In this document: piece by piece, positions 8,363-40,444 of the stretch
Layout of the letters: each line of letters begins with the position of its first letter
Numbering within the stretch: position 1 is the stretch's first letter
Origin: Agarophyton chilense
Lineage: Eukaryota; Rhodophyta; Florideophyceae; Gracilariales; Gracilariaceae
Direction: 5' to 3'
Length of the DNA stretch: 64,000 nucleotides
Assembly (NCBI GenBank): GCA_030374765.1
Contig: JARGXX010000004.1
Coordinates: 1,700,883-1,764,882, forward strand
Program-made: the position numbers and the translations under genes
Notes under the pieces: model-generated
Told to the model about the DNA's origin: nothing
Databases searched by the model: none
The model's input: only the letters and a program-made list of their open reading frames with translations

Positions 8363-11300
8363 TTACGGGTCACCAGGTTTGTGATTCCGCTCTGCGGTTG
8401 TTGCCGGGTTGCCGGGGCTGCCGTACCGCTTCGCGGAAGTTGCCGGCGCGGCCGGGTTGTGTTTCCGCTGGGCGGTAGGGGCTTCCCTGAAGTCCGCTCT
8501 AACCGCGAGTTTGCGGGGGTCTTTCCGTCTTGGTGACAGTTCGCCGCAGGCCTCCGCTTGATTTGCGGCATGCGGCGTTCCCATTGGTGGGCAGTTTCCG
8601 CTGTGCGGTGCGCCGTGGGCGGTGAGTGGTTCACCGTCCCGGCGATCCGCCTCCGCGGGGTGGCTGTCAGCGAATGACCGGGATGCCGGGTGCCCATTGG
8701 TCTGATCTCCCGCCCGGGTCACGTGACCTTGAGGACGGGTGGTCGGACCGTCGCGGACGGTTGGCTCCGATTGTTCGGCAAGGGAGGCGGTTTTCGACTT
8801 GTCGTCGCGCCCCTTTTCCCCCATGGGGTTCGTACCGTTCTCAACGGAGTGGCTCGCTAGACCTGCTTGCGCAGCGTCCGCCGGAGTACTGGTATCGACC
8901 GAAACGCTCGGTGTGCGACCGCGAATGTGCGGGGAGCCCTCAGTTGCTTCCACGCGATGCGGAGCGTCCGTAGGGTTTCGCTTCCCGGCTTTGGGTCTTC
9001 GAGCGCCTTGGTTCCCCTTGCGGGGTTGCGTGGCAGTCGGGTTGACCGCTGCGTCCCGCGGGAGCGGATTGGCGTCCGGCGACGATGCCGGTTGCCCGCT
9101 CGGGGGCCTTGCCCGGGGTGTCCGGTTAAACTTCCGTTGCGACGGCGATGCTTCCGCGATTGAGCGGGTCCCCTCCCCCTCCTTAGACGGAGCGACGGGT
9201 GATGGTGGGCTAACCGCATGGCGGGTATAAATACCGCTGCGCGGCGCCCGTAAGGGTAGCTGGCCGCGAGGGCCAGGTGTTTCCGGCATTGCCGGTGGTT
9301 CCAATAAAGTCGGTATATCGAAGAGACCCCGTGAGGGGTGCGGTACCACGGCGGGGCGTGGTGCCACCGTTGTACCCGTGGTATCCGAGGCCGTTTCGAC
9401 GGGGGCTGATGCGTTTTCCGCCTGCGGCGGTGGGGCGGCTACGATGCGGTCTTGTGAAAGACGTTCGTCGTCGCCGTTTTTGTCCACCACAACGGTGCCG
9501 GGGAGGGAGGAAACGACCCGGAACGGACCTTCAGCGACAGGCGAGAGCTTGTGACGCTTGTCGGTCCGGGGGTTGTAGTACTCCCGGCGAACGAACACGT
9601 AGGTTCCCGGCTTGGGCGGTGCCGGTAGTGGTCCGCGTAAGCGGCTATCAAAGTCCCGCTTGTAGGCGGCCTGGGCACGTTCCATGGACTTCCGGGCGAC
9701 CGGTACGAGCTTAGTAAGCCAGTTCTTCCACTTGAGGCGGTATTGACCCACGGATGGGAAAGAGTTGACCCTGTGTTGGGGTTCGACCGCCACTGGCGGG
9801 GGTGTCCTGGAGAGCACAAGCTCGAAGGGAGTCAGACCGGTTGTCCGGTGAACCTGCGTGTTGTAGGCGTAGGTGATAGCATCAGAATAAATGTCCCACG
9901 TCATTGGGTGATCGGATACGTAGGAGCGTAGCGACGCGAGTAGGGTGCGGTTGAAGCGTTCCACCTGCCCGTTTGTTTGCGGGTGGTAGGTGGTAGTAAA
10001 CAGGTTCTTGACGTCGAGGATGCGGCAGACGTCCTGAAAGAACTTAGAGGCGAACTGCTTACCGTTATCGGATAGAACCTCTATCGGAGGGCCATAAACG
10101 AACGCCCAGTGCGTAACGAAGGCGTTCGCAACCGTGAAAGCGGTGATCTTCCGTGAAGGCACGGTGCGCACCAGCTTCGAAAAGCGGTCAGTGATAACCA
10201 AGAGGAACTTGTTTCCCTTGCGCGTCTTGAGTAGAGGCCCGAGAATGTCGATTGCGACAAACTCGAGGGGCGCCCTTGCGGGGAGAAGCTTCATCCGTTT
10301 GGAGTGCTTCCGGAGTTTCACCCGGTTCTTTGCGCATTGGGTGCAGAACTGCACCGTAGCGTAGCAATCAACCGCCATAGCGGGCCAATAAAAGTCCCTT
10401 AGCAGGGTTAGATAAAGTTTTCTCCCACCCGAGTGTCCCCCGAGGGTCGGGTAGTGTGAGAGGTGGAGCACCCTGGTTTGCAGAGTGTGGGGGACCACGA
10501 TCTGGGATCGGTGGTCCACCGTCCGGACGAGGTAACCGATGTCGTTTACCTCGAACGGGAGGTCCTCTCCACCGTTTAGGCAGGCCCGTATGCGCGTGCA
10601 GAACGGGTCGCCGAACTGTTCTCGGATCATCTCCTCGGTGGAGATGGGTACAAAGGTCCCGGGTACGGGTGTTTCATTCTCGCGCACTGCGAGTAGCTCA
10701 TCCATTTCCATGGTGTCTTCCCCGGTTTCGGGCCAATCCGACTCCGTCGGTGTTTCCCCTTCCAAGGTAAAGCACGGGATCTCGTCGACCTCCGGGTCGG
10801 CAAGTGCTTCACCTGTCGTAGGTAATCGAGAGAGGGCGTCTGCTTGGGTGTTCTGGACACCCTTCTTGTAGACGACCTCGAAGTCGAATTCCGCTAAGCG
10901 GAGGCGCCACCGCATTAAGTGGCCAGAAGGATCTGCGATGTTCAGCAGCCACCTCAACGAGGCATGGTCCGTGTACACGGTGAAATGAACGCCCATGAGG
11001 TATGGGCGCAGAGTGGATAGCGCCCAGACCACTGCGAGGCACTCCTTCTCGGAGACCGAGTAGTTGCGCTCGTGGACGTTCAGCGTGCGGGACCAATAGC
11101 CAATTGGTTTGCGTTCCCCCTCGGGGGTGGTTTGGAACAGTGTGCCGCCCACCTGGTGGTCGCTGGCGTCGGTGTCGATGGAGTAGGGAAGCCCAGGTCT
11201 GGGCAAGGATAGGATGGGAGCTGTCGTAACTGCCTTAATCAAGGAGCGAAAAGATTCCGACTGATCGGTGGTAAATGGCGCAAGCTTTGGTGGCTGGCCC

Positions 11301-11791
11301 TTCCGCAGTAGTGCGTTTAGCGGAGCGGTGATATCCGAGAAACTCGGTATAAACCGTCGATAGACGTTGACCAGACCTAAAAAGGATCGGAGCTCCGTTT
11401 GAGTACAGGGCTCCTTCGCCTCGCAGAGGGACTTGATACGAACTTGTTCGATCATTAACCGTCCTGGACGGATGACGTGCCCGAGATACTTCACCGTGTC
11501 GGTGAAGAACTCGCACTTCCTCAACTTGAGGGTTATTCCTGCGTCTCGCAGTACGGTCATCACGTCCCGCACGTGGGTCAGGTGATCGTCCAGGTTTCTG
11601 GAAAAGACAATGATGTCGTCCAATAGACAAGGCACGTGCGCCACTTGAAACGCGACATCAGTATGTCTATTGCCCTTTAAAAGGTGGCCGGTGCATTGGT
11701 TAAACCAAACGGCATCCGCTTGAAGCGGTAGGAACCCGAGTGGCAAACAAACGCGGTTTTGTCTCGTTCCTCTTCCCAGACTGGGACTTGC
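8363..11791 (-). pseudogene. Ty3/gypsy pol, second part: RT end, RNase H, integrase
   Basis: The open frame of 1,143 codons begins out of register inside the RT. It becomes correct near the catalytic motif, which reads LDDIIVFS after a one-base deletion around 11635. It then shows the RT thumb (YLGHVI, ELRSFLGLVNVYRRFI), RNase H (DTDASDHQVGG, TDHASLRWLL), the integrase zinc region (His pair, then CTQC), the integrase catalytic core (FVAIDILGP, LSDNGKQF, HPQTNGQVERFN) and a GPY/F-like module (KLSPVAEGPFRVV). After that comes an unusually long Pro/Ser/Arg-rich region of roughly 430 residues ending at the TAA at 8363. The preceding RT stretch (about 11640-11791) holds another in-frame stop in the true frame. 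Domains are clear; function is lost in this copy. Confidence 0.9.
8387..8658. repeat. Cluster of CCGC-loop-GCGG mini-hairpins
   Basis: Six perfect 4-bp stems of CCGC/GCGG with loops of 3-6 nt lie at 8387-8397, 8426-8436, 8465-8475, 8503-8516, 8598-8608 and 8647-8658. They fall at the end of the low-complexity tail of pol. The same style of hairpin occurs throughout the element. Confidence 0.7.
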
Positions 11792-11793
11792 CA

Positions 11794-13281
11794 TTAGCCC
11801 CAGTTAGCATCCAGAGCCGTTAACACGGTAGCGTCCCCGAGCGAGTCTATACACTCGTCCATGCGCGGAACCGGGTAGGTGTCCCTCACGGTGACGGCAT
11901 TGAGGCGGCGGTAGTCAACGCAAAACCGCCACATGCCGTCAGCCTTGAGGGCCAGCACCACCGGTGAAGCCCAAGGAGATTGGGCGGGCTCGATGACTCC
12001 AGCACGGAGCATCTTGTCCACCTGAAATACTTCCTCCTCCCGAGCTTTCGGTCCCGCCCTGTAAGGGGGTTGTGCAACCGGACGTGCGTCCGGTAGCAAG
12101 TCTATCCGATGTTCGGTTGTATTGATCTCACCCAGTGAGCCGTCCCACATTGTGGTAAACTCGCGTAGCATTCCGCGTAAGCGGTCCCGGTGTGAGACCG
12201 GTCCATGACTCAGATCCAGGTCCTCGAGGGCCTTGATCGGGTCTATCTTATCGTAGCTCGTAGGCTGTGCCCTGGTGTCAGGTGTAGGAACCGACGAGGT
12301 CGGAAATGCATCCGTCTTGATGGTTTTATCGAGCGCCAATTGCTGTGCCTCCCCGGAGGTTTCTGCACCGGATACCGGGAGACCATCCTCGGTAGAGGGA
12401 GTTATTCCGAGTACTTCGGCAGCCGTCACCTTTGTAGGGAGCATCGCGAGCGGGTGCGGCGTCACAGACCCAATGACTTGGTTCTTTGCCAGCGTCTGGG
12501 GAGCCTTTCCCAGATTGGCAACCAACACCCTGAAAGGGGAATTCGGCGTGACTTGCACGATTCCGTTCGCAACAATTAACTGAAATTTCTCGTACAACGA
12601 GGGCAAGGGCTGAACAACCCGAAGACCGTGTTGACGGGAATTGACTGAAACCATAACCTGGCTCTCCGGGGGTATGGTGACTGACGAGGCAACGCGTAGC
12701 TTCGTAGAATCCCGGTTCGCCGGTGTGGGTTCCTGCGCAGCAGGTAGAGGAACGTGTTTCCTCGATGCCCGCTTCAGCGGTTGACGAACAATGGGGACGG
12801 TCGATCCGTCCTCAAGTTCCACCTGCTTAAGGCGTGGGCGGATGGCGTCGACAAACCTGTCGCAGTAGTCACATCCCAGTATAACTGGCGCGGCCAGCGA
12901 GCGGCACACAATAAAATTTAGTTTAACCACCATCCGCCCTAGCCTGACGACCAGGTCGATCACACCAACCGTTTTCAACGGGTTGTTTTTGGCGTCTGAG
13001 ACGTCGGGTACCGTTTCAGAACGGATGAGTGACCGCAATGGCGGGGGTAAAACCGATTCCACAATAAAGTTCGTCCCAGCACCTGTATCCAGGACAGTGA
13101 GATATCTCACCATAAACTGCGTGTGCAGACCAAGGTCAGCGTAAACCTTGTAGTTACGCTTGGCCATTACCAAGAATCTATCCGGGATCCGGTTATTTCT
13201 AATCCGTATCCACGGTCGACGCAAAACACCGAGGTGTTTAGAGTCCGCGTCTGCGTTGTCCTTCCTTGTCAGGATTTTCAT
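11794..13281 (-). pseudogene. Ty3/gypsy pol, first part: protease and RT N-terminus
   Basis: The frame opens upstream of an ATG at 13281 (MKILTRKD). An aspartic protease motif appears as LTVLDTGAGTNF, followed by a long linker, then the RT start (AGVIEPAQSPWASPVV, WRFCVDYRRLNAVT, YPVPRMDECIDSL, LTALDANWG). It stops at a TAA (11794-11796) where Ty3 RTs normally carry Tyr, so a point change ended the frame inside the RT palm. Pol lies in a different frame from gag, so it was probably made by frameshifting in an active copy. The protease would cleave the polyprotein; RT copies the RNA genome. Confidence 0.9.
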
Positions 13282-13358
13282 TGAGGAGCGAGGCACCGGC
13301 GCCTAGGGCGTCGTCAGCCTCAACTCTGAGGACGCCTCTCCCGAAGGGGAGACTCCCT

Positions 13359-16842: not shown

Positions 16843-17837
16843 ATGCCGAAAACTCTTCTCCTGGCAGAAAAAGAGCGAGGTTACATTAAAGCCATGCACG
16901 AGCAGAAGATATCTGTTAATGCAATTCACAAGCGTAAAAAAAGGTCTCGCGACGTCATTGCACGATATTTGAAGGACCCCGAGAACTACGGAAAGCGCGC
17001 CATCACAGTTGAAAACAGCAAAATGACCCAACAAGACCGTCTTCATTTGATTTGAGAAGCATAAAAAGGCCATTAAACAGCTTTTCAGCTAAAGAAAGCT
17101 CTCAACATGCCGGTATCACAACGACGTGTGAAGCAAGTGATCTCTTCTGCCCCATTTCTTCAATACAAAAAGATGAAACGGGCCCCAGTTTTGACTGAAT
17201 CGCACAAATGGAATCGTCTAAACTAAATGCGGGAGAGGTATGCATGGAATAAGAGAGAGTGGGGTAAAATAATCTTTTCGGATGAAAAGAAGTTCACCTC
17301 GGACGGCCAGGATGAGTTCGCGTTTTACTGGCATGATCTACGACGCGATGAAAAGGTCATATCAAAACGCCAGAAAGGAGGTGGTGGCGTAATGGTACGG
17401 GGTGTATTTTCAGAGCTTAGGACGAGCGCTTTGGAAATTCTTTTTGGTAACCAAAATGCAAAGAAGTACACTGAGACGCTTGAAAACCTCCTGTTACCGT
17501 TTTCCTGCGAAAAATATCTGGAATCCTGGACATTTCAACAAGAAAATACTGCTATACATACCGCGAAACTTACTAAGAGTGGTTTGAAGATCAAAATGCT
17601 AAAGTTATGGACTGACCTGCTCAGAGTCTTGACTTGAATCCAATTGAGAACGTACGGAGCATACTTGCTAGACGTGTTCACGCCAATGGACGGCAGTTTG
17701 AGAATCTGGAAGAGCTGAAAAGTTGTGTGTTAGAAAAATGGGGTAATAGTAAGACCCAAGAGTGTTATAAACTAGCGCAAAGTATGCGCAAACGTTCCAA
17801 GGTGCTGGAGAGTAAAGGCAGTAAGATAGACTACTAA
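16843..17837 (+). pseudogene. Tc1/mariner transposase, frameshifted
   Basis: The frame starts MPKTLLLAEKERGYIKAMHE, a helix-turn-helix-like DNA-binding region (to about 17000), and is then broken by a stop at 17053-17055. A second piece from about 17100 holds RRVKQVISSAPFLQYKKM. The catalytic core follows: KIIFSDEKKF gives the first Asp, FQQENTAIH lies where families usually have QDNAxxH (Glu here instead of Asp), and LNPIENV gives the last acidic residue after a further frameshift near 17610. In an active element this enzyme would cut at the inverted repeats and insert at TA. This copy cannot be functional. Confidence 0.85.
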
Positions 17838-18125: not shown

Positions 18126-21100
18126 TCAGGCCGCTGTCACCGGAAATGGACTTCTATCATCTCGGATGATATCTGTTAGTCCATCCTTGTACACGTTCAA
18201 ATTCCATCGAACAATTTGAGCTGCTTCCTCTACATATTTGTTCATCGGCACATCGGAGACATCATACCCGAAAGGATTTCCTAACTCTTCCGACCATTTT
18301 TCGATACCTACTACCCCATAGGCAATGAACCCAATCCAAAGAATGGTCAACCACCCACTTGTTTCTACAAGACCGAGAGGCAACAACAATATCCAAATAA
18401 CCAAAAAGATTCTCAAATGCTGTACATATCCGAAAGGCATGGGGATATTCACTATCTCCTCACAGTCTATTGCTGCGTTCTTCAGCAAATGAATGTAGTA
18501 CATGATGCTCCAATGTTCATCGAAGCTCGCTGGATCTACTTTCTCCTTTGAATTACGCCAATAATCGCTTTGAATGATATAGTGATGCATTACATCTAGG
18601 CAGTAGTCCGACTTATCAGGTGCCCTGAGCAACTTCTCCGTATCTTCTTCGCTTAGATACTTTCTGAATTCTTCCACACATTCTTCACGCCGAAGTTTGG
18701 CCATCATAGCTACAGAAAAGGCAGTCAAATGTGCAGCAAATCGTTCCTGATCCTGCTTATGCCATTCATCTCCATAGTAGCTTTCGAAGAATCTGTTGGA
18801 TAGAATTCGAGTAGTTCCCAAAATATGGCTCCAACTTTGAATGGCAGATACATATCGCCCATGACTTTCATAAAGGCGGAAACCAAGAAGAAGAAACAAT
18901 GCAAATCCGACGTACTCCTTCACAGCGTCACAGACTGCTATTCTTGAACAGAACCACAGTCCACAATCAGATTCTACCTCATCAGCAAAGGGAAATGCCT
19001 TCGAGACGCCCCACGCAATCAAGAGCGTGACAACAGTCCAGAGTAGAATTGCACCAGTTTGAATTGGAGAAAAGGTGTGCAGTGCCAAACGAATGAATTC
19101 GCGCGCCATCGGTATGCAAGATTGCTTCTCGAGCTTCTTCGGCGGCTCTTTCCAGCCTTCGGTCCAATAGGAATTGATTTCAGATGAATGTACAAACGTT
19201 TCCAAACGTGGCTTGCAGTGCTTTTCAACAAAAATGATGTCAGACACGATTAAGTCTGCCATAGCGGTAAGATCCAAGTCGTTCAAATCGGTTCCAAACG
19301 GAAATTGGAGTTCTTTCGCGATCTGATACATACTGGGGAGGAAGTTAGTATTTGTTATTGCATTTCATCAGCAATAGTATGCGTAAAGAGGTCGCTATGC
19401 TTACCCGAGCACTCCATAAGCAATAACTGGGACCCACAAAATCGTGAACCACCCTGGCATATTCAAAAGTTCGAAGACTCAAGGTCAGTTATTCTGGAAG
19501 CATGGAAAAAGGACGAAAGAATATTTTCCGAGCTGCAACAAACCTGAATATTCTGCTAGAGCAAAAGGAAGGATCAAAAACCATATTCCCATGAAGCAAT
19601 TGAGCAAAATTAGAAATCCGGGTGCAATATCAAATGACCGTAAGAACTTTGACTGACGAATCATTTTTTCCAGTGCTATGATCTCCATTTTAACGAAAGC
19701 AACTCCACTTCCATATACCACAGGTTTTCGTAGTCGGTCCGAGTGGTGCAAGTAGACCAAAAAGTACGAGCGGAGTACATCGACGCAGTGGCTGACCATG
19801 CTATCGGCACACTGAATTTTCGAGATGTCGTGGTGTGACAGCAGACCCTTAACCTCTTGGATATTACGGGAGTTGCGAAGTTCGCTCTTGAGCACCAAGG
19901 GAATTGCTGCAATGTGTGATAGAATTCTGCGGTGATCTCCATCATGAATAGAACCTTCAGGAAACAATGTTTGGAATTGTACTGCGAGAGTATGGCAAGA
20001 GGCACGTAGACGAGCTCCCCAAACACCTCCTGCAGAGATGTATCGAACAAAGGCGGCCTGAACGAAGAATCCAAGAACCATAAATGCTTTTCGAAAAAAA
20101 CACAAAAAAACGAGTAGTCAGCAAAAACTAAAGGACAATACGCCAAACCTATTGTTGAAAATTTTGACAGCAAATCATACCTGCAAAAGAAACATATGTG
20201 ACCACAGTGGTATTCACGATGAAGTTTGATTTCCACCATCTCGCAACAACGGTGCTATCTCTAGCAAAGTATGATATGCCAGTTGCCAATATAGTCCATG
20301 CTGTGACAAAGAGTAGAATCCACCAGGGAACAGATCGAAGAAGATGAGAGTACAAGTGTGGCTTGATTTTTTTCTCATCAGGGCTTTCGAAGTGCAGGCA
20401 CGGACCTTCGCCAAAGGACAAAGAGACATTACCATCTGCCTCGAAGTGGGCAAGGGTATGCTCATGTTTCACTTCCTTTTCTTGAAGAACAGCGCCTAAC
20501 TGAGGGTCCCCATCAAAAGGAGTTGATTGAGTGTGATGCATCGCGCCCCATTTGACACTATCCACCCCCTCTATGACCGAATTTGCTGCGTCGCTACACA
20601 TTTTGTTCAAGGGGATGTCAAGCTCGTCGTTCCCATAAGGATCTACCAGCTTGGAGGCCAACTCCTCAAGCCCAAGCACACCGAATGAAATGACCGGAGC
20701 CCAGAGAATAGTAAAGAATCCAGTGCTCGGGGCCATGGCTAGGGGAAGGAGAAGCAGCCACAGAATGGCGAATATATGTTGATGCTGTGTATAACTGGCA
20801 ATGACCGGATAGCGTTTGACACCAAATGCGCGCGATATTGTTTCACGAATTGTTGAGATGCGAGAAATCATGGACACAGCCACGGAACAGCTAACCCTGT
20901 TGTTTGGAAGATGTTCAAAACCATCTCTATGGACGTTATCTTGAATCAAAATGTATGCCTCGATAGTATGAAGCAGATACTGTATCGAAGATTTGCTGGA
21001 GAGCATTCGACTGCCGTCATCATCAGAAAGTAATCCTTCGTCACTCAGACTTCGATCAATCGTCAAGAGCTCGTTCCGGAAACAGAGAGGAACTTGAATG

Positions 21101-23904
21101 ATGTGTGCAACTATTCGCTCTTTGTCATTCTCATGAAAGTAGCCATCTTCAAAGCATTGCACGATTTCAATGGCCAAGTTTCGAAGATTCATTTCGATGT
21201 CGAAGATAAGCATGGCACCTTCCTCGTATCTTCCGATCGCATCAGAGGCACGGAAACTGAGGATCATAAACAATGCAAAACCGATATTTGCCAATATAGA
21301 TACTTCGATATCTATTGGACTGCACCAGGCGCCACAAGCATTACGTCTCGATTCATCCCATGTGAAAGAAAATCCATAAGACAGAAGAACTGCAATGACA
21401 GACCACAATAGAACCAGAGCCATGCCTCGAACAGAAACAGATGGTAAAGAGGCCACCATTTTTTTCAGAGACCCAAAGGGTGTAGGGTTTTTGTCGTGGC
21501 CGGCGGTCTTAAATGACAGCAGAATTCGTTTAACGAGACCAGCAGACCTGGGATCATTGACCGGTTTATCTTCATTGAGAGAGTTGTCGATAGCCTTGGG
21601 CTTAAACGTGTCTCGAGAATAGGTTGATGGACGTACAAAGTCAGCCGCTCCTCCCAATGACTCGTTGTATAATGCATGCACGGAAGCTCGGATTTCGTCA
21701 CACAGCAGGTCAAGTGGTATATCTTCCTTGTCATAACCAAAGGGATCGGCGAGATCGCTTCCAATTTTGATGAGATTAATTATTGAATAACTGATGGGGA
21801 AAATGTAGAGGAAAGAAAGGAAACCAGCAAATTGAACTAGCGATAGTGGAAGAAGTGCCAACCAAAAGAACGTAAATAGCTTCAAATGAGTAGTAAAAGA
21901 CTCTGAAATGGGAAATTTGCGGATTGATTTGCACTCCTGTATGGCTGTTTCCAAAGCCCAAAGGGTATATTCAATAGTATACACGGAGGCGTTCAGTGGG
22001 GAGGACTCAATCTCAGTGGCTTCCGCATGAGCGCAATCAAGACTGTTCAGATATCCATAAACGACATCTGTCGCATGTGCAAAGAAATCATCTGTTTCGT
22101 CAAATGCTGCAATGTCCTGAGGTGATAGGAAGCTCTCCATCACTGAAGCGTTCCTGTTGTTGCGCAAATCCTGCTTGGCACCGTACGCTAGTGCTACCAA
22201 ATGAGAGAAAAGACGCTCTCGGTCTCTGTGATGCCAAGTTCCACGCTTAGTAGTTATGGCGAATTGGAGTGCAAGTTCTTCAATGCAAGTTCTGACCTTG
22301 CTCTGCCAGAGTTGCAACGATCTCCAATAGCGGCCATATGCGACATTGAGCCAGAATCCTAGAGTCAAGAAAAGTCCGAGACTTACGTACGAAGTGATTG
22401 AGGAATCGACTGGGATGTAGACACACCACCATCTGCAAGCTCCATTTTCGTTCTCCCCTCTCGCACTGTATGTGATGAGCAAGAGAAAAGCAGCCCAAGC
22501 CATGGCAACAAAAAGATAAGTGAGCAAACCTTTGCTGAGACTGCCTAAACGAAACGAACCGAACCGAGCCAAGAAGCTTTTCTTGGAAGCTGGCTGGGTT
22601 CCTTGTTCTGATTCGCTCAGAGGCTTCTCCAGCCATTTAGGAGTATCATGGTCCTTCTTTACCACCGTGGCAATATCCAGACGATCACGAGAATAGGCGT
22701 CCAAGGTTTTGAGAGCAGCTTCAGCGGAAAGCTGATTGAGTTTGATGTCTTGCATGTCAAAACCAAAAGGATCACTGAGAGCTTGGCCGATAGTGAAGAG
22801 CATACCGACACCATAGGAAGTAAGAACTGCCCAAAGGGGTGTGAACCTTAAGTAAAAAGACGAACGAGCAAGCAGGCAAGAAAGAAGGAGATGACGGAAA
22901 GGGTTGGGGTTGAGTCAGGATTCAGGATATTCGTCGGAGTTTGTGGCAAAACGGGACAAAAACGATAAATACATGGCAACTTACCAACCACTACTTTGCA
23001 CGAGAGCAAGCGGTAAAAAGAACATCCACAAATAGAGGAAGACAGTCAGATGAGTGACATAGCCTCTAGAGGGACTCGATGTGGCTATCTTAACCAGATC
23101 GTTGGCGTTAAAATCAACAGCATCTATCATGTCCATGACCAAATAGCGGACACCCCATCCAGCAGGCGTTTTGTCAGCTGCGAGCAATTTGAACGAATGG
23201 GGGGCATCATCTTCAGACGCACTGATATAAGTCCTAACAACCCTCATACAATGCACATGCATGGAATCTGCTTCGAGCATTTGCTCAATATCGCTTTTAT
23301 GAAGAATATCTGCGACTTGAGCTGCTTCCTTTTCCCCTCGAAGGGTCATTTTCAGTGCGATGGGGCAGGCGACAAGATGTGCTACCAGACGCTCAACATC
23401 GGCACGGTGCCAAGTGCCGGAGGGGTATGCCTGACGGATGTGGCGGGTGATTTGGCGAAGATTGGCGCCAAGGCTGGACCAATTCAACTGAGCGTCGAAG
23501 TAACGATTGCTCGCCTCCCGAATGAAAAAACCGAGCAAGACGAAGAGCGCCCATCCGACACCGTAGGAAACTGAGGATGATACAGAAAGCCTGGAGGTCC
23601 AAAAGGGAACCGAGAACCAGCTGAATTGGGTGTCAGCCAATGCAAAGGCGATGAGAGTAACGGCGATGCTCCATGCGGTCTGAAAGAGAAGGATAGTGTA
23701 TGGAATGGTTCTGAGCACGGAAAGGAGGGCGGAATAGTCCGCTTGTCCTATCTCGGCACGTCCGGAGCCTAGTTTGCCGGTGAGGGCGGCGCTTCTCAAA
23801 CGAAGTGCCACGACTGTGTGCTGAAAGCTTAGGTAGGACGTGCACGGCCCAGGGTCTTCTGGAGAGCGTTGAGCTCCGAGGGTGGGTATGTATTCAGCTG
23901 CCAT
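18126..23904 (-). CDS. Five-domain tandem bestrophin-like channel protein
   Basis: I join five exons: 23904-22985, 22846-20181, 20086-19544, 19453-19405 (49 nt) and 19332-18126. All four introns (138, 94, 90 and 72 nt) are GT-AG, and the frame is kept at every junction. The product is about 1,794 aa, starting at ATG 23904 in a good context (ACCATGG). It contains five bestrophin/UPF0187 units of about 355 aa. Each has a membrane pair, an LGFR.....RY-type motif (for example LLGFRLYESHGRYVSA), a WHxxDxERxxxHL motif, a neck-like segment (IPMPFGYVQHLR in unit 5), a second membrane pair and a closing DPFGYD-type motif near residues 337, 675, 1045, 1407 and 1748. Bestrophins are pentameric anion channels, so one chain could form a whole channel; that is inference. 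Unit 4 has the most diverged neck (FDIAPGFLILL). I see no clear transit peptide. Confidence 0.88.
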
Positions 23905-24077
23905 GGTTAGAGGCTAGATTGATGGTTACGCAGTCAAAGATGCAAAACGGGGAGTTTGGGGAAAGGCCGGGAACTCCGCCCCGCAAGCAGAGAATGCCGG
24001 GGGTGGGGGGCGGGTAATGGAGGCAGGGGATTGAGATGGTGATGGTTATTGTTTGTTTCATAGGGAGAATAAAAGCA

Positions 24078-24137
24078 GGCTGGGAAGATTGGGAGTGCGT
24101 GGAATTTTCAACGCACGCACACGCAATCTTCCCAGCC
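24078..24137. repeat. 14-bp inverted repeat stem-loop
   Basis: GGCTGGGAAGATTG (24078-24091) is perfectly complementary to 24124-24137. Inside it, GTGCGTG and CACGCAC can extend the stem. It lies about 175-235 bp upstream of the bestrophin ATG. Confidence 0.8.
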
Positions 24138-24711
24138 TTAACAAACCGTGGGACATACAAGGCTGCGGTCGTGACGTGAACATTATTGGGCGCTGTGGAA
24201 AGATGAAGAAGTGAGCAGGGGCGACATTCTGCGATCTGGATCCGGGTTGTTGTCGTCGAACTTCATCGGTAATTGAGGAAGGGGCGCGGAATGGCCGAAG
24301 GGCAGCAGTGAAGGGCGGGGGCATGTTCCATTGGATTGGGGTGCAGCGGGATGAATAGTAGATTGCAAACCTTCCAACGTTTTAATGATTACGCGTAGAT
24401 AACCCGTTACAGTAGATATGTCTGCGCTGTTGATATACGTGCGCCTCATGCTAGGCGAAGGCGTAGCACGTGCGCCATGCGCATCATATCGTGTGCACTG
24501 CGCCGTGTGCCGTAGTTTGCACTGAAACAAAAAAATTGCACAGCTGACGGCTGAGACGCCCACCGGGCGGACAGGGTGTGCATGAGGAGGCTCCGACCCC
24601 TTCGTTTTCTGCATGCGCTTAGCGTTTACGTGCACGTGTCGGCGCGATGTAAGGAGTGTAATTGCGTATGCGCCAATTCCGATTCGGCCTGTGCTCGAGC
24701 GCGAAGCCTCG

Positions 24712-29010: not shown

Positions 29011-30921
29011 TTAACTGCGTAGGTGGACAGGTTTCCTTTTGCAAAGAACTAACCTTCTCGCATGGACGGCTGTGCGCGTTATACGTCCTGTCGAGGACAA
29101 AAGTTCGTAGCGGGGGTGGGTCGCCTTCGTGACGCGGCATGGGCCATAGTAGTATGACTCGAACGCCGGCCACTTGCGCGACTTATTAAAGGCGGGTCCA
29201 TGTGCAACTAACACTTCGTCTCCGATATCATAGTATTTGACTTTCCCCTTGGGCACACGAGGAATGCACGCTCTTTCGATTTGCATCGCGCGGGTTCCAG
29301 ACTCGCCCATTAATTCTAACGCTCGGTGATGCGGCGTGCCACCCTGCAAGAGGGCCACCGTGTCATTCGCCATCATCCTTGGTTTGATTCCGTACATCAA
29401 CTGAAACGGGGACGGAACTGTTCCCCTATCGCGACGACGGTAACCATACAAAACCTGCGGTAGAGAGTCTGCCCAGTCCAAGTCAGTACGCACTACTGTC
29501 CTCTTGATGGCCAATTTGATCGTAGGCACCATACGTTCAGCTCTTCCATTCGCCATAGGCGCGTACGGGAGTACGGTTTTCCACACGATCCCATGCTTCG
29601 TCATGAAGTTCCTGACTGCTCCAGCGGTAAAGGCGTTGGCGTTATCCGAAACGATCTTCTTCGGTGGTCCAAATGGCAGTATGATCTCCTTCCAAACGAA
29701 TTCTATCACCGTGCTCGCAGTGGAGTTCTCCGTGGCCCCTGCAATAGGCCATCCTGTGAGATGCTCCACTGCAATGATAGCGAATCTCTTACCATTCTTC
29801 GATGCGCCGAGGGGACCTGCGAAGTCTATCGAGAACGTTTCGAACAGTCCCGTTATAGGAGCTCGAAGGTTCGTGTAGTAGGTCGGGATCCTCTGCGCGT
29901 GCTGGCACCCATCACAACCTCGGACATAATCCGTGACATCTCTGCAGACACCGGGCCACCAGAACCTGTCCCGAACAAAGTTCCTCGTCGTCGTGGCATC
30001 CCAATGTCCGATCTCGTCGTGGAACATTCTTATGATCTCTCTGCGATCATCGACAGGTGGGACGGCGCGCAGCCCAGCGGCCTCTCTCCGGAAAAGCGTA
30101 TCGTTCCAGAGCATGAATCTCTTCGCGTTCCTCTTGATCGACTTCTTTCTTTTCGGGTCCTCATCCTGGACTTGAACTCCGGCCAGGAACCTGGCGACAT
30201 TAAGCAAGTACGGCTCAAGTCCCGACAGCCTAGGGTCTGCCCACGAAATTGTGGCGACTACCTCTGATTGTAAGTCTCCTTCAACAGTCTCTGGCTCCCG
30301 TGAAAGACCAGTCATGCGGGACAGGTAATCCGCCGCACCATTTACTATCCCCGGGCGATACTTAATCTCGAAGTCGTATTCGGCCATCAAGTCCATCCAT
30401 CGGGCCAACCTCCCATGCACATCCTTCTTCTTAAACGCGTACTGCAGAGCCTGATGGTCTGTCAGCACAGTGAAGGGAATATCAGAGAGGAGATACACTC
30501 TGAACTTCTTCAAAGCGAACACGACTGCGAGCGCTTCCCGTTCACTCGTAGAGTAGCGTCTCTCTACTTCCGTCATCGTACGCGAAGCGTACTGTATGGG
30601 ATGTACTTTCCCATCCTTCTTCTTCTGAGAGAGGACAATTCCCAATGCGACCGACGACGCATCGGTCTCCACTATGAACGGAGCGTCAAAGTCAGGGAAG
30701 GCCAGCACGGGGGGCGTCGTAAGTTTATCTTTCAGATGCTCAAACGCAATCTGCATTTCCCTCGTCCATTCAAACTTTTTCTTGCCAGAGGTGGCGGCGT
30801 GCAACACCGCCGAGCTCCTTGCGAAGTTCTTGATAAAGCGGCGATAGTATCCCGCCAGCCCAAGGAAACTCCTCAACTCCGTGACGTTGGTAGGCACGGC
30901 AGCATCAACAATGTCCTTGAT
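29011..30921 (-). pseudogene. Ty3/gypsy pol after the internal stop: RT thumb, RNase H, integrase
   Basis: The frame continues directly from the TAG at 30922-30924. It shows the RT thumb (ELRSFLGLAGYYRRFI), RNase H (VETDASSVALG, TDHQALQYAF, NGAADYLSRM), the integrase HHCC zinc region (GCDGCQHAQ) and the D,D,E core (FSIDFAGPLG, IVSDNANAF, NGRAERMV). It ends at TAA 29011-29013 with no chromodomain visible. Everything is open in this copy, so only the single upstream TAG blocks a full polyprotein. In other Ty3 elements the position of the stop usually holds Lys. Confidence 0.88.
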
Positions 30922-33642
30922 CTAGTCCGTGTCCACCTGAATTCCGTCAACATTAATGACGTGTCCCAATAACTTTATCTCTGATTGTGCAAAACTGCAC
31001 TTGGTGACCTTAACTTTCAAGTTGGCTTCCAGAATTCGTTCGAACACTGCCCTACAATGACGGAGGTGCTCTTCGGTCGTCTTCGAGAAGATAACCACAT
31101 CATCCACATAGACCATTGCGAATGGAAGATCCTGTAGGACTCCATCCATCATTCTCTGAAACGTCGAGGGGGCGTTCATCAATCCGAACGGCATCACCTC
31201 GAACTTGTACGTTCCATAGCGGCATGCAAACGTCGTCATCTCCTTGCAAGTCTCCGACATGCGAACTTGCCAGTACCCAGTGTACAAGTCTAGAGTTGTG
31301 AATATCTTCGACCCAGCTAAGTCGTCGAAGATCTCCTCGATCTTCGGTAACGGCCACCTGGTTGGCTTCATTACCCTGTTCAATTGACGGTAATCAACAC
31401 AGAATCGTGGTCTTCCGTCCTTTTTGGTAGCTATGACTACTGGAAAGGACCAAGCTGAACTTGAAGGCGTGATTACTCCAGCCTCAAGCAGCTCATCAAC
31501 TTCTTTACGCACAATTGCGTTGTGCTTCGGGGGCATCCTGCGCACTCTCGAATGAATCGGATTGTCGTCCGTCAACTCAAAAGAGTGCACCACAGGAACG
31601 TCAGCCGGCTGGAGGTCACTAATGTCCCAGGCGGTAATATTGGTCTCCCTCAAGGCATTCGTCAAGTCCTCTTGTGCTTCCCGAGGAAGATGCCTCATCT
31701 TTGACGCTAGTAGAGCTGAATGATCACCCTCTTCATCAACATCGGAGATATCCACGTTGCAATCGAAGTCCTGTAAATCCGGTTCATACGGCTCCTTGTT
31801 CACTATTGCCAATACCAAGTCCGGCTCACCGTCAGATTCATCCCCGGAGCTCGATGGTGATGACGATGACGCGTTAATAGACCGCTCAGCATCAGATTCT
31901 TCAGGAGATGTGAAGTCCTCGCTATCTGTGCGAGCTCCATCGATAACAGGGGGTTCGTTATAGAATGGTAACAGAACCTCTTCTGCTCCGACTGCAAGAG
32001 TAACTTGCTGGCGACTAAAATCCAGTCGCGCCTGCAAGGCATCCAGCGTCGGGCTACCAACAATGACATCAAACGGAGTATTCTGGACGACAAGGAAGTC
32101 TAAGGGGATGCTCATCGTCCCAAACGAGACTGGCACATCTTCGACACAGCCTAACACCTGGGCGACAGTCCCATCGGCGACCGTGACCTTCCTTGACGTG
32201 GCCAGGGGCGATAAAGTCAACTGTTCGCATAGCTCCAGCGAGAGTAGATTCGGAACAGCTCCAGTGTCGAGTAGGGCGTGTGTTCTCGTGCCATAAAGCT
32301 TCACAGACACGACTTTCAAACGACGGGGGAGGCCAGAGGCGCTCAAGACAGACACATGGCTCTTAGGCACACTCCCAGCCAGTAGGCGCTTCAGAAGCTT
32401 CTTGGCCTCTTCAGCGTCACCACGGAGTAGCTGCCCAAACGTGAGCCCGCACGATGCGGCAGCCAGCTCGGCTACCACATTATACTTCCCGACGTGCTCC
32501 TGAAGGCCCTGTGAGGGCTTCTTCACCTTGCGGGACTTCCTACGCTTACCCCTCGATTTCGGCCTTGCAGCCGCTCGGGGCTCGCCCGGATTCTTGTTCA
32601 CCAGAACGTCAATATCCATGACATTCGTGCGAGGTTGCTTCGGAAGAGCTTGGCCCTCGGCGTTTCTCTTCGCTGCAGCCACGACATCAACTAAAGCAGA
32701 CTCTTGCACAACTGCAACATGATTAGAGTCGCCATCGGACTTGAGTTTCATCTCTTCCTGCGACTCTGACCTCGCTCCATCGAACCCAACAGAGCGAGAA
32801 TCACTCCTTCTAGGTTTAGACCAACAAGTAGACTCCGAATGGCCCATCTTGCCGCAACGCGAACACTTCGTGTCACGATGCGGATTCGAAGGACAACGGT
32901 TTGCACCGTGTCCCGTCTTCTTACAATAACTACAAGTCCAGTCCTTGTCCGCCGTTGCCGGAGTTCCGCTGTCAAACTTCTTCTTCACCAGCAGGTGCAG
33001 CTCGGAAAAGTTCTTGGTCAACTGCTCGACCTGGCTTTGGAGCTGCTGAGTAGTCCCGGAACGAGCATCCGGCCTTGGTAAAATATTCTTCACACCAAGC
33101 GCCGCGGAGGATGAGGAACCGACTCCAGAAAAGTAAGCCTTTCGACCAACGTGATACTCCACAATGGCCTTCTTCAATGACTGATAGTCAGAAGGCGCCC
33201 TGTACATGACAAACTGAGCCATGTAAGGAATAGAGGCCACCGCGTTCCTAAGCAACCCGAAGGAAGCGGTATCGTTAAAGCCTACACGCTTGTAAAGCGC
33301 GTCCAATTCGGCCAAAGAGGATAACAGATTCTCAGGGTCTAAGCGGCCAGAGACTGCATCATAGACATCGTCTTCTGGCTGGCTCTTCTGGATGAATTCA
33401 GCCATAATCTTCTTCTTTACAGCGGTGTAGTCCATTGCTTCCTTGGTCAAAGAACCTGACTCTGCGAATGTCCTATAATAGAAGTCAAACGCAGAGCCCT
33501 CTAAGTGACAGAGAAGCTCTACTGCCTTCTCTTCGTCCGTCTTTCCGCGCATGGCGACATTTTCGTACGCAAAGAAGAAACGCTCGACCTCCGCTCCTTC
33601 GGAACCATCGAACATAACGCGAGTAGTGTTAGCTTCAGACAT
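30922..33642 (-). CDS. Ty3/gypsy gag-protease-RT polyprotein
   Basis: I start at ATG 33642 (MSEANTTRVMF). An in-frame ATG at 33675 overlaps the LTR edge and is less likely. Gag has a helical capsid region (about 10-165) and two zinc knuckles, CSYCKKTGHGANRC and CSRCGKMGHSESTC. A basic linker (RPKSRGKRRKSRKVKK) follows. The protease shows HALLDTGAVPNLL. The RT shows FCVDYRQLN, LDLYTGYWQV, FGLMNAPSTFQR and the catalytic MVYVDDVVIFS. Gag and pol share a single frame, so there is no frameshift in this family. The frame ends at an amber TAG (30922-30924) within the RT C-terminal part. Confidence 0.92.
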   Translation of the reverse strand: MSEANTTRVMFDGSEGAEVERFFFAYENVAMRGKTDEEKAVELLCHLEGSAFDFYYRTFAESGSLTKEAMDYTAVKKKIMAEFIQKSQPEDDVYDAVSGRLDPENLLSSLAELDALYKRVGFNDTASFGLLRNAVASIPYMAQFVMYRAPSDYQSLKKAIVEYHVGRKAYFSGVGSSSSAALGVKNILPRPDARSGTTQQLQSQVEQLTKNFSELHLLVKKKFDSGTPATADKDWTCSYCKKTGHGANRCPSNPHRDTKCSRCGKMGHSESTCWSKPRRSDSRSVGFDGARSESQEEMKLKSDGDSNHVAVVQESALVDVVAAAKRNAEGQALPKQPRTNVMDIDVLVNKNPGEPRAAARPKSRGKRRKSRKVKKPSQGLQEHVGKYNVVAELAAASCGLTFGQLLRGDAEEAKKLLKRLLAGSVPKSHVSVLSASGLPRRLKVVSVKLYGTRTHALLDTGAVPNLLSLELCEQLTLSPLATSRKVTVADGTVAQVLGCVEDVPVSFGTMSIPLDFLVVQNTPFDVIVGSPTLDALQARLDFSRQQVTLAVGAEEVLLPFYNEPPVIDGARTDSEDFTSPEESDAERSINASSSSPSSSGDESDGEPDLVLAIVNKEPYEPDLQDFDCNVDISDVDEEGDHSALLASKMRHLPREAQEDLTNALRETNITAWDISDLQPADVPVVHSFELTDDNPIHSRVRRMPPKHNAIVRKEVDELLEAGVITPSSSAWSFPVVIATKKDGRPRFCVDYRQLNRVMKPTRWPLPKIEEIFDDLAGSKIFTTLDLYTGYWQVRMSETCKEMTTFACRYGTYKFEVMPFGLMNAPSTFQRMMDGVLQDLPFAMVYVDDVVIFSKTTEEHLRHCRAVFERILEANLKVKVTKCSFAQSEIKLLGHVINVDGIQVDTD

Positions 33643-33654
33643 CTTCGTATTTGA

Positions 33655-33674
33655 AGACCTTGGATGCGGTACCA
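33655..33674 (-). other. Candidate primer-binding site
   Basis: Immediately after the 5' LTR on the minus strand the bases read TGGTACCGCATCCAAGG. The TGG start abutting the LTR fits a tRNA 3'-end binding site. It overlaps the first possible gag ATG. Confidence 0.6.
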
Positions 33675-33838
33675 TGTAAGGCTTGTTACGGGCAAGCGTA
33701 CCCTCTGTTTACTTTTCGTTGTCTTTCTTGTCCCCCTCCCCTACCAATTCCACCGCTCGCAGGAAGGTTTTGATATTTCAGCTCGCGAGGGGCTGCGTCC
33801 GCGTCACACGTGGACACAGCCCCAAACAGAGGCCGACA
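33675..33838 (-). repeat. 5' LTR of the young Ty3/gypsy element
   Basis: 164 bp, identical by eye to 26771-26934, flanked by gtttc. Confidence 0.95.
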
Positions 33839-35251: not shown

Positions 35252-38200
35252 TTACTCCTTCCTCACATTTGAAAACCAAACGCCAATCCTTAGAACATTG
35301 GGAGTTTCGTCGTCCGACGACGATAACCATTTCGCAAACACCCGGTCTTGTTCGTGAAACATAGTAGAGTCAGAACGTAAGCTTGCCACTTGTGATTCGT
35401 TGAAGAGACTGCAGTCTCTGTCGCAGAAAAGATCCTGTACCAAACGCGCCCTTTTCATCGGCGATGATCTCCACAGAAACCAGCCAAGTTCCCTGAGAAG
35501 AACCAGTCTACAAGTAGGACCGAAACCCAGCCCATCCCTGTGTACTTTGAATCCTTTCGCGTAAGACAGACCACACTTGAAACAACCTCCAGATGGTATT
35601 GCAAGATCTTTGTCACACAAGCGGTACCTGTGATCCTTTGAGTAGCATCTGAAGCATCGGTTCCTTTTCCACCCGCAACTTTGATTACCGTGTTTCACAA
35701 CTGCTTTGTGTGAAACATAGCAAGCAATGCAATCATGTTCAAATTCTCTAATGAGGGACTCGCAAGTCCCTACAACATGACTCATTGAGTCTTCTTCATG
35801 AGAAGATGTAAATTGTAGTGCCCGACTAGAAGCTTCATATGCTTGAGAGAAGGCGTTAGTAGGACCTTCCGCTTCCAAGGCGTGGGGTTTCGGTCTCCAT
35901 TTCGGCCCAGCAGGGCTGCAATTCTCCCAACTCTGTCGCTTATCACCGTCATCAAATTTTGGTGCACCATTGCTTCGAGTGTCGCAAATGTCACAATTCT
36001 CCGACTCGCTATCCAGCAAGCACATGCCACTTTGTTCCCCGTCCATGACACCATACATCCAGTTCTTTCGGCACAACAAAGTGTTTTCGAGCCATTTCTG
36101 TTCTTCCCTCCACTGCTCTAGTTTAATATAGTTTTCTTCATTTTGGATCTGCAATGCCTTTCGCTCTAGTTCAGCCTCGAAGGAACGTGCAAGACTACTG
36201 GAGTAGACGGTGATACAAAAAGCGAGCCTTCCATCCCTCCCTGCTCTTCCAGACTCCTGTGCATGGTCCGAAAGTGACGTAGATCCACCTACATGCAAGA
36301 CTAGTCTCACATTAGGGGCGTCTATTCCAGCTCCAAACGCACACGTGCACACCATGAGGACCACTGTGCACTGAGATGAATCCGTAGTATCTTTTTCACC
36401 TTGACTGTTTTGCTGTCTCCAAGCTTTGTATATCTGGATCCGTTGAATCTTGTCCATGCCGGCGTGATAGCAAAGAACAGAGACCTTTTTCGAAAGTGGT
36501 TTCCTGGGGCTTCCGTTGTCTAAACCTTGTTCCTCCTCGTATAAGGCTGATAGAATATCACTGAGCTGCTCGGCGTCCTTCCTTCGAGTGACGTAAAGGA
36601 GAACCCGGAAAGCAGGCGAGTTTTGATGAGCATTGGCGTTAAGCCTAACTTGTTGACCTATCTCTTCTAACTTTTCTTCAAGAACGGAGAGAGTCTTCTC
36701 GAGGATCTTCTGCTTCGCACTTTGAAACCTTCCGCCCTCTGAACGATCTTGCGAACATGGTGAATCGCTTTCGACGTTGATCACGGCAAAACAAAGGTTC
36801 TTGCGGACTGTGGGCATGCTGAGAACAGAAGCTTTACGCATTCCATGCTTTGCGACAAGGGCAGAGCGATCTCGTGGTGGAATAGTCCCAGTTAATAAGA
36901 TGCGTGGGATGTTTTTCGGTACTTCAAGTAGTCCGTATCTCAAATCACGCAGACTTTGTCGAAAAGAAGACCAAGATGCAGTGAGATGGGCTTCGTCGAT
37001 TACAACGCGGGCCAGTCTTCTCTCCGCCACAAGTTTTTGAACCAACTGCTTGAATCGTTGGTCCCGAACCTGCTCGGGAACGAGCATGTAAACGTCGGCT
37101 GGCTCTCCGATGTTTCCAGGTATAGTTGTACTGGCATGAAGCCCACATTTTTCGGCACGGAGCCTAAGTTCCTCTACCAGTGCCACCAGCGGAACAATCA
37201 TGATTGTAGTAAAGGATGAGCGTTCCATAAACGCTGGAAGTAGAATGCACAAAGTCTTTCCCGATCCGGTGGGCATGACCACTAGAATGTTTTCACGGCG
37301 TTCTGCTACTGCAACAGTAACATTAAATTGCATGGTGGACTTAAACACCGAGTGATTACAGCTGTTCATTGTGCGAAGGTGCTCTAGAAAAGTAGAGAGA
37401 TGATGTTCATATGTCCGAGTCTCTACATCCACGAGTTTGACACCGAAGGGAGACATGGGCTGATATGGGCCGATTTCAAAGATTGTATTTCCTCTGTATT
37501 CCAAAGAAATATCGCTTTCCAGAACAGCGGCTCCAGAATAGCTTCGGCGCCCAAGACTCTGAGAACTTGGTTTCGATACATCGAAAGGAATCGTATCAAG
37601 ATTTGGGTGATGCCCTGACTTGTCTTGCATCTGGACTTTGTTCTCTGATGTAGGCAAGTTTAAAGACTTTAGCCTTTTTCTGGGACGACCAGACTCATCT
37701 GTGTCGTTTTGAAGCTCAAAAGCGTTCCTTTCTTTCCCGTGAAAGCCCAGGTATTTGTGCCATTGCATAGACCATCTACGATACTTGTCCAAACTAGGTT
37801 TCTGCAAATGGATTAATTCCTCTTTAGTTCTGGCGTAAGCCCTTTCAGCAGTTTCCACACTGTGAGCTGCCTGATTGTGCCCGACTGCACGGAACTCGTC
37901 ACGAATCTGATCCATAAGATCATGAGCTTTTCCTTCACTAACGGCAGGGACCATGCCAACTGAATAATTTCGGTAGTCGTTGAAGGTTAGTTGGATCCCT
38001 TTTAGTTCAAGATGTTTCGATACCACACCGCGTATATAATCATCAGTGAAAGGTTTACCCTTGTTGCAGAAGAGGATATTCCAGTGTTCTTTTCCCAAAG
38101 AGGGCCCATATAAAGCTGAGACCATTGCAGTTTCCAATGGCCTTATTAGAACAAGATACATGAGAAGATACTCGCTTGTTTTGGAATCTGGAAAACGTGG

Positions 38201-40444
38201 TATGGGCTTCGAGAATCCTTTCATTCCTCGGGTTTTGACCCACCTTGTAACGATCATTGCCTGACCTTGTGAGACGAAAAGACTTCGCAACCCATATATA
38301 TCGTTTGTGAGACGAAGAGTAGCTATTTCTGTAGCCCTAGCAGGAGATCCTGATGATATATGTACACAGAACAATAAAAGTTCCTGAATCTGACGGCAGT
38401 AGTTCAACCAGTCAAGAACCTTTGACTTGAGCATAAGGACACCGTGCAAATCTACAACTTCTTTATCTCCTGGAAGAGATACTCCGGAAGCGTTGGGATG
38501 ACTAAGAGAAATCCAACCAGCACGCATTTTCAACGAATCGAGTACAAAGCAAGTGTTCTTTTGCAACCAATTCTTTTTCTTTTCCAAAACTGACATGAAG
38601 TTGTAACCTGGGGCCTATACAGTAAAATTGTCTGTCAACGACTGAATCATGTTCATAAACCCATCAGGAAGTGCAGTATTATTCAGAAGGTTACTGAACA
38701 GGAGCGAGTCGATTCTGATATGAGCGTCCCTCACCCAAGTCCCAACATCTTGTAATCGAATATGAGTGTTTTTGACCACCCCACAGAGATCATGGCTCCG
38801 ACAGCAATCGAAAGTAACAGCAATATCTTCCTGGTCAATGACACCCATTGCCAAATCCAAAGCAGATCGCACATATGATGTAGTGTTGTTCTTTTGGAGG
38901 TCCAGAGCGTCCTTGATCAAAATCATCGTGTGGTCAGTGCTGTCTAAGAGAAATCCATTTCTGTTGTCTTCATTTTGTTTTTGAGAAATGGATACCTCAT
39001 GCACTGCGCAGGCAGATATGCAATACTGGAGAGCTGCAAGTGTTCTTGTGACCTCCCATGCTTCTGCATATCGAAAGTTGTTGGGTTGAGCTGTCTGCAA
39101 ACGAGCGTCTTCCTCAGATCGCACGCAGCGACAACTAAAGAAATTTTTCACTGCAAGTGATTCGCAAGAAGAAGACATTGGGCGAACCTCTGGCAGAACG
39201 CTTTTCATGAAGAAATGAAGACCAAGGTATCTTTTTTCGAAGCACATTGGTTTCGAAGATTTGAAAGGGTCTGGAACGTCAAGTTTTTGATGTAAAACAT
39301 TCTCATTAAGCTCCTCCAGATATAAAGCGATTAATCCGGCAACTTCTTCATTGCATAGATGTTCATGGCGGTGCTGACATTTGATGCAGAACGATAGAAA
39401 GCGACTTATCTCAACCGCATAGGCTTTGACGCACTTAGAAGAAACGGTTCTGAATGTAAAGCGATTATCACCCCGGCTTCTTACGTTGATAGATTCTAGC
39501 ACACAGTTCGGCATGTCAATGGTTAAATCCCGAACCATTCTGAGGTACTGAACGACGTCTTGCTGCACGACGTCCCATAAAATACTTTTCTCAGTAATTG
39601 ACCCAGAGAGTTTCACCGCGTCCTGAAGTGATATCTTCCTGTGATCTAGGACCTCATCTACCCTTGACAAGGCAACAAAAGTATTTTTCATCTTGTCATG
39701 CATAGGTTCCTGTCCTTGTAGGTCATCAGTAAACCCTACAATAGACGAAATGATTTTCGAGGCAGCCGAGTTCATACTAACACCAGAGATTTCTTCGTGA
39801 ACGATCCTAAGACCCTCCTCTGATCCGTTCAGTGAGTTCTGCCCAAGAAGGTTAGGATTCGAAATTTTCTGCCGAGCGGAGCTACATTTGGAAGTGAAGA
39901 CGATCGTCACTTCTCCCACCTGGACAGCTTCTGATACAGGAAACAATTTTCGACAACGTCCTCCGAAAATGGTTTGCAGGCGTATCAATCCACGTTTTTT
40001 TACGTCAGTGATGACATTGGCCGTATCTTCAACGCCATGCGCGGTCGAGAGATGCGTAGATAAACTTCTCATGTCCGTGTAGCACGTGATGCAATTCGGG
40101 CATTTGTACCCGTACAAGACTTTAAGGCCGGTTAGGGGGGCTAGTGGCCTTGCTGACATAAAAACGGCAGTCGGCTCCATGCCCGAAACACCACTTCTGC
40201 AGTTTTCCTCTTCACTAGGAGCGATGTAGCGATTCCAGAGAGTTACGTACGGAAGCTTCGACTCCAATTCTTTCTTTCTCTCCCAAACTGTCGCAGCCAT
40301 ATCTTTTCCCTCATCAGATGAGGCACCGTGCCGAACAGATAGATGGCGTGCTACCCCTTTCGAAGATCGTATTCCCAATTTACATGTAAGGCACAACACG
40401 AAGAATCCCACTGAATGAACTCCAATTTCTATATCCCCGTTCAT
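35252..40444 (-). pseudogene. OrsD/tyrosine recombinase/RecQ helicase protein, copy A, one internal TAG
   Basis: From ATG 40444 (MNGDIEIGVHS) a frame of about 1,731 codons is interrupted once, by TAG at 38615-38617. The homologous copy B has Lys there, and the same frame resumes at once. The first part has two C2H2-like fingers (CLTCKLGIRSSKGVARHLSVRH and CPNCITCY...HLSTAH) as in the fungal OrsD family. The second part has a tyrosine-recombinase-like region (SGSPARATEI, FNDYRNYSVG, HSVETAERAYAR). Next comes a RecQ-type helicase (VMPTGSGKT, VVIDEAHLTASW, TGTIPPRD, CAFGAGIDAPNVR, ESGRAGRDGR), then a Cys-rich zinc site (CRKN...CDICD) and zinc knuckles (CFRCYSKDH). It probably belongs to a mobile element. 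The stop may be a disabling mutation or be read through. Confidence 0.82.

Follow-up and report, generated by a model that had tools for sequence, protein, structure and literature searches.

Bestrophins of bacteria, animals and plants assemble from five chains into a ring, and each chain crosses the membrane with four helices (PMC9076864, PMC8496536, PMC11638005). In KpBest of Klebsiella pneumoniae (PDB 4WD7/4WD8, 6IVx series), five identical chains carry one unit each, VCCN1 of the plant thylakoid (PDB 7EK1-3) also has one unit per chain, and the metazoan BEST1 is made of five chains. The gene investigated here, found on the minus strand of a 64,000-nucleotide (nt) stretch of the red seaweed Agarophyton chilense (Florideophyceae, Gracilariales; GCA_030374765.1, contig JARGXX010000004.1, positions 1,700,883 to 1,764,882; hereafter the window, meaning the whole stretch), encodes five bestrophin units in one chain of 1,794 amino acids (aa). 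Fusions of rhodopsins with bestrophins are known in algae. The bestrhodopsin of PDB 7PL9 also holds a bestrophin module inside a longer chain and is a recognisable match, but by its title it is a rhodopsin-rhodopsin-bestrophin with one bestrophin domain, while the window protein has five and no rhodopsin.

In an hmmscan of the 1,794-aa protein against Pfam-A, the sole family at E up to 0.1 was PF25539 (Bestrophin_2), which matched five stretches (E=4.7e-173, 574.8 bits against a cut-off of 27). A previous reading of this DNA, made without database searches (the sequence-only reading), had announced a single chain with five bestrophin domains, each with its own neck and a DPFGYD-like end, and had proposed a search for five hits of PF01062. 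The chain and its five domains are borne out, and hydrophobic neck residues and the end motif are present in all five units. PF01062, the family of metazoan BEST1 and BEST2, was the wrong profile for this branch and gave no match at E up to 0.1. No rhodopsin domain was found either, as there was no second Pfam family at the same threshold, and inspection by eye revealed no clear transit peptide for plastid targeting. The unit borders come from a profile built out of the same five units and should be taken as borders, not as independent proof of the units. Linkers of 17-47 aa separate them. Units 1-4 show 25-28% identity to unit 5 and the DNA repeats in the region are all short (25-34 nt, copies other than the reference being 69-84% alike), so the units do not stem from a recent duplication or from one introduced by the assembly; one further 18-nt repeat pair is located outside the gene.

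The removal of four introns, all GT-AG, results in a single frame of exactly 1,794 aa, which opens with an ATG at 23904 and whose stop codon ends at 18126. Exon 2 contains 888 complete codons without interruption, covering parts or all of four units, so the joining of the units is for the most part independent of how the splice sites were called. When four relatives were used as spliced-alignment queries against the gene, introns 1, 2 and 4 were placed at identical bases in all runs and intron 3 in three of them, the query P0003 leading to a different acceptor. All four runs added introns at or near the gene ends, a consequence of the forced fit that the aligner makes there, and the run with P0009 placed an extra intron within exon 2. 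The closest protein, P0001 from A. chilense (100% identity over 71% of the query), is the deposited model of the window gene; it has 1,733 aa, part of unit 2 is missing, and its different N-terminus makes the exact start codon uncertain.

Two whole-chain searches covering lengths of ~986-3,140 aa (about three to nine units; two-unit chains would fall at ~545-985 aa, between the length ranges searched) returned 32 different long relatives (29 plus 3 new). The sequence-only reading had recommended looking for orthologues in related genomes, and close relatives are among the 32, from Gracilariopsis chorda at 64% identity and 100% query coverage and from Gracilaria domingensis at 62% and 99%. Named long relatives are annotated as 'hypothetical protein', 'unnamed protein product' or 'Bestrophin/UPF0187'. 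Five units were found in 27 and four units in 5. All five units are near full length in P0002, P0003, P0007, P0009 and P0026; in the others of the 27, unit 1 is clipped (20 proteins), unit 2 is shortened (P0001) or unit 5 is in two pieces (P0005). In a subset of 25 relatives, 17 start just past the site of intron 1, as expected of frames called without introns. The four-unit chains were rejected as true four-unit proteins: P0010, P0022 and P0029 stop at 'YVSFAG', the intron 2 site, P0004 is cut off by a frame shift in the last part of unit 4, and the P0028 chain opens within unit 2. Two shorter proteins, P0030 (567 aa, G. domingensis) and P0031 (540 aa), contain parts of units 2 and 3 only and, judging from their sequences, are probably fragments of genes or contigs. 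Five of the 32 (P0001, P0004, P0005, P0006 and P0026) are genes of the A. chilense genome itself. Considering the best match to the window units, the order 1-2-3-4-5 is maintained in all 32 long relatives and in four paralogue models from this genome.

These results bear on whether the long chain could be an artefact, with five adjacent genes misjoined by splice calls or copies generated by the assembly. The deposited model does differ in detail and the gene is known here from DNA, which would leave some room for such an error, but the 888 unbroken codons, the low identity of the other units to unit 5, the nearly identical introns obtained from four relatives, the well-covered relatives in G. 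chorda and G. domingensis and a transcript-derived paralogue protein covering four units (described below) all contradict it. We consider this explanation extremely improbable and already largely refuted.

Profile search of the A. chilense genome (79.8 Mb, 135 contigs) with PF25539 revealed at least 31 matches, grouped at seven places that correspond to five five-unit genes and two one-unit loci (Table 1). Using the window protein as query, the other four five-unit genes gave spliced models of 1,841, 1,828, 1,817 and ~1,773 aa, in the order of the table; the ~1,773-aa model is approximate and includes several improbable introns, and in the 1,817-aa model one intron near the beginning is doubtful. 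Judged by chain position, introns 1, 3 and 4 have counterparts in all five genes and intron 2 in four. P0004, which the name of its source marks as a frame derived from a transcript (GEZJ01002761.1), is identical to exon 1 of the C4:591k paralogue (343/343 aa) and matches its second exon by 97.1% over 1,106 aligned positions. By eye it also spans introns 1, 3 and 4 and enters exon 5 past a small frame shift, indicating that a single RNA of a paralogue carries units 1-4 and continues into the last exon.

Between the window gene and this same paralogue, identity is 62-71% in each unit and 39% in linkers and ends, and third codon positions differ about 3-4 times as often as second ones in each unit. 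The similar values show that all five units are under similar purifying constraint. They are also relevant for the idea of a decayed or scaffold bestrophin that lost conduction, for which C75:231k (L034, C75:229800-237800) would be a candidate, being the most divergent five-unit paralogue and having lost the end motif of unit 3 in its spliced model. The window gene, however, keeps the hydrophobic neck, the end motif and the purifying pattern in every unit, and we find loss of function very unlikely for it. The higher divergence outside the units would suit a polyprotein, in which the long chain is cut at the linkers to deliver five subunits in equal amounts to a heteropentamer, and linkers of this length would be sufficient. 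Yet a fixed order would be needless for free subunits and it is the same in all 32 long relatives, although shared descent alone could explain it; taken together, we regard processing of this kind as unlikely.

In a tree of 94 rows, to which A. chilense contributes one of seven one-unit proteins and a bacterium one of 12 further short relatives, each unit position forms one branch with a support of 100 in the Shimodaira-Hasegawa-like approximate likelihood ratio test. A more careful tree of 53 rows separates the five positions likewise, with bootstrap 100. Since every position has its own fully supported branch, the five-unit design must be old. The seven one-unit proteins lie beside the unit branches in the larger tree and the 12 other short relatives outside; in the 53-row tree, the seven do not cluster cleanly, being united in 44% of the bootstrap trees. 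Nearest to the five-unit genes in the 94-row tree are the one-unit bestrophins of the P0032 family, among them C13:847k, which belong to the same family but have one unit and presumably build each channel from five separate chains. A common origin of units 1, 2 and 4, to which their common lack of the arginine/acid pair described below also points, appears as one branch with support of 86 in the larger tree and has a p value of 0.509 in the approximately unbiased test with the 53-row tree; these sequence comparisons neither reject nor show it.

The neck of the bestrophin pore is formed by I62, I66 and F70 in KpBest and by I76, F80 and F84 in BEST1 (PMC8496536). We mapped the KpBest residues onto the units by alignment, and the window protein has three hydrophobic residues at these places on the second membrane helix of each unit; the I-F-F neck of metazoan bestrophin is absent from all five. 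For the family counts, P0001, P0004, P0005, P0006 and P0026 were omitted as doubles of the genome models, and the neck stretch is missing in 19 of the 31 unit-1 rows. At the first ring, unit 1 has W in all 12 rows with a residue there, unit 2 has L (30/31), and F predominates in unit 3 (30/32), unit 4 (25/32) and unit 5 (26/29), so the ring is not uniform as it is in KpBest. The middle position reads V, L, M, M and L from unit 1 to unit 5 of the window protein, and the last one is F in 122 of 133 family rows. The neck residues thus vary between positions and are kept at each of them, as expected of a pseudo-pentamer with specialised subunits. The sequence-only reading had pointed to unit 4 as having the most altered neck. 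This is not supported for the window gene, where unit 4 has the same F,M,F as unit 3 and unit 1 has W,V,F; unit 4 stands out only across the family, in which T takes its middle place in 16 of the 29 rows not lacking that residue.

The residues at the places of KpBest R71 and D253, one step behind the neck, tend to change together across the family. Arginine plus an acid occur in unit 3 (28/32 rows), in unit 5 (23/29), in the other short relatives (9/9) and in most one-unit rows (5/7). Neither of them occurs in unit 1 (12/12), unit 2 (31/31) or unit 4 (29/29), which differ in this from KpBest and have nearly always aromatic or aliphatic residues at both places, apart from a single Ser in unit 1 and two cases of His in unit 4. 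As to the exceptions, one or both partners are missing in 4 of 32 unit-3 rows; in unit 5 there are 6 of 29, two with both residues lost, two with only the arginine replaced by an aromatic residue and two with Q or H plus an acid. The one-unit rows keep R71 in 7/7, two of them without the acid. In BEST1, opening is governed by W287, a residue of the helix that backs the neck (PMC6342527, PMC6591409); the KpBest match of W287 is W252, and we infer a contact between R71 and D253 because position 253 follows W252.

The end motif occupies the place of the calcium clasp, to which D301 and D304 of BEST1 contribute acids. Aspartate is found at both places in all five window units. In VCCN1, a chain of one unit, the acidic clasp residues are absent (PMC9076864), in contrast to the five units here. 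Acids at these places are also common in the other short relatives (6/9 and 7/9), so calcium binding does not follow from them.

AlphaFold placed three consecutive units confidently, with a predicted template modelling score (pTM) of 0.82; the modelled parts of the chain reached 0.82 and 0.75. The models have the bestrophin fold, and their structure matches by Foldseek and VIA are bestrophins, each over one unit only. Four membrane helices per unit put both ends on one side, thus units can be joined by linkers of 17-47 aa, and with exactly five of them such a chain can form a closed ring around a single pore. We suggest, with a probability of about 0.77, that one polypeptide of five modules folds, most likely on its own, as a five-part ring around one pore. 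By family anatomy the chain would have some 20 membrane helices. Neighbouring modules would pack side by side like the subunits of bestrophin pentamers, module 5 would close onto module 1, and the linkers would run on the cytosolic side. The first neck ring, W/L/F/F/F, would then make a permanently asymmetric gate, with module types arranged as A-A-B-A-B, where B (3 and 5) keep the pair of arginine and acid and A (1, 2 and 4) have aromatic or aliphatic residues instead. Such a ring would probably conduct anions (chloride, bicarbonate) across an algal membrane, ion and membrane being guessed from the family. Calcium might be a trigger, acting on the acidic motif found in every module, which is a guess of the same kind. 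Of the covalent pseudo-pentamer that had been proposed earlier for this gene, the five units, the fixed order, the old separate lineages and the position-specific necks hold; ring closure, conduction and selectivity are what we infer.

It could also be that chains join, either sharing rings among them or aligning five chains by like units into larger arrays. On native gels, Chlamydomonas BST4 migrates at ~1,000 kDa, where ~330 kDa would correspond to a pentamer, although its authors offer other reasons as well (PMC11638005). On the other hand, chains with their ends present have as many units as a bestrophin ring, a single chain is enough to complete it, and AlphaFold packs three consecutive units with high pTM, which makes joining an unlikely arrangement.

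Several points weigh against the single-chain ring. The window gene is known here from DNA and sequence comparison alone, and the deposited model departs in detail from our spliced model. The structure models cover parts of the 1,794-aa chain, the five-fold packing being extrapolated from them. The clipped unit 1 in 20 relatives leaves room for an extra upstream unit. The design arose once as far as seen, so the conserved number stands for a single retained event and not for repeated independent ones. The R71/D253 places were chosen by hand, without a scan of all pairs, and their contact is deduced. The aperture position (KpBest I180) is not alignable with confidence; a comparison there was dropped, as the alignment is too gappy and the residues vary.

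The module is an ordinary bestrophin and the single-chain ring is the new part. The sequence-only reading knew of no five-unit concatemer, and none was found in the literature searched, whose coverage was partial with few subscription papers; the same search gave no multi-unit bestrophin of any kind and no paper on bestrophin together with Gracilaria. In the four-domain voltage-gated sodium and calcium channels, ring subunits were fused in one chain and the domains then specialised. The idea of fusion is the same there, but those are four-part rings of an unrelated family, and here the ring would have five parts. We think it fairly probable that this red-seaweed family, with one chain as the whole ring, five irreversibly specialised modules in the A-A-B-A-B pattern and an asymmetric conserved gate, is the counterpart of those channels. 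It would be a five-fold case of the path from fusion to specialisation, with one-unit relatives still in the same genome. If the ring is single-chain, the gene fixes subunit order and number, and what each position contributes to gating and selectivity becomes accessible through a change of one residue at one position, unlike in a homopentamer. Ion and carbon handling are the obvious candidates for the role of five such genes in a seaweed.

Table 1. Features of the five-unit gene of the window, and related loci in the A. chilense genome
Feature	Position	Strand	Remarks
Whole gene, ATG to stop	18126..23904	-	1,794 aa once spliced
Exon 1	22985..23904	-	aa 1-306 and part of 307: N-terminal tail, most of unit 1
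Intron 1	22847..22984	-	138 nt, in end of unit 1; counterpart in 5/5 genome genes
Exon 2	20181..22846	-	aa 308-1195: unit 1 end, units 2 and 3 whole, unit 4 start
Intron 2	20087..20180	-	94 nt, unit 4 neck helix; 3 cut-short relatives stop here
Exon 3	19544..20086	-	mid part of unit 4
Intron 3	19454..19543	-	90 nt
Exon 4	19405..19453	-	49 nt
Intron 4	19333..19404	-	72 nt
Exon 5	18126..19332	-	unit 4 end, whole unit 5, stop
Unit 1	22651..23763	-	aa 48-372, interrupted by intron 1; neck W,V,F; end motif DPFGFD
Unit 2	21625..22587	-	aa 394-714; neck L,L,F; end motif DPFGYD
Unit 3	20521..21498	-	aa 757-1082; neck F,M,F; end motif DPYGND
Unit 4	19182..20379	-	aa 1130-1443, interrupted by introns 2-4; neck F,M,F; end motif FPFGTD
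Unit 5	18156..19130	-	aa 1461-1785; neck F,L,F; end motif NPFGYD
Five-unit genes	window; C4:591-597k; C4:705-711k; C16:268-273k; C75:231-236k		PF25539 search
One-unit loci	C13:847k; C13:1038k		PF25539 search; C13:1038k without clean model

Two of the introns, 22847-22984 in unit 1 and 19454-19543 in unit 4, have nearly equal places within their units (profile positions 257 and 256), which is perhaps a trace of unit duplication, or chance. About 170 bases upstream of the start codon there is a 25-nt inverted repeat (24077-24138, 92% complementary, 12-nt spacer). Just past the 3' end of the gene, a remnant at 17227-17637 resembles by eye a Tc1/mariner-type transposase, with no Pfam match.

Elsewhere in the window, 8363-13302 and 29011-33708 each contain a retroelement that has domains of reverse transcriptase, RNase H and integrase. 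Frames with DEAD and Helicase_C domains are located at 35252-38614 and 49742-55384, the latter, of 1,880 aa, matching OrsD as well. Judged by eye, 46568-48136 nearly duplicates the end of this longer frame and 38615-40888 resembles its front, and the frames at 35252-40888, 46568-48136 and 49742-55384 look like parts of a large mobile element. A single frame of 1,141 aa at 56255-59680 combines N6/N4 DNA methylase and SET domains, an odd pairing. From 46000 to 64000, a steady guanine-cytosine skew of ~0.17-0.39 extends across 18 kb.

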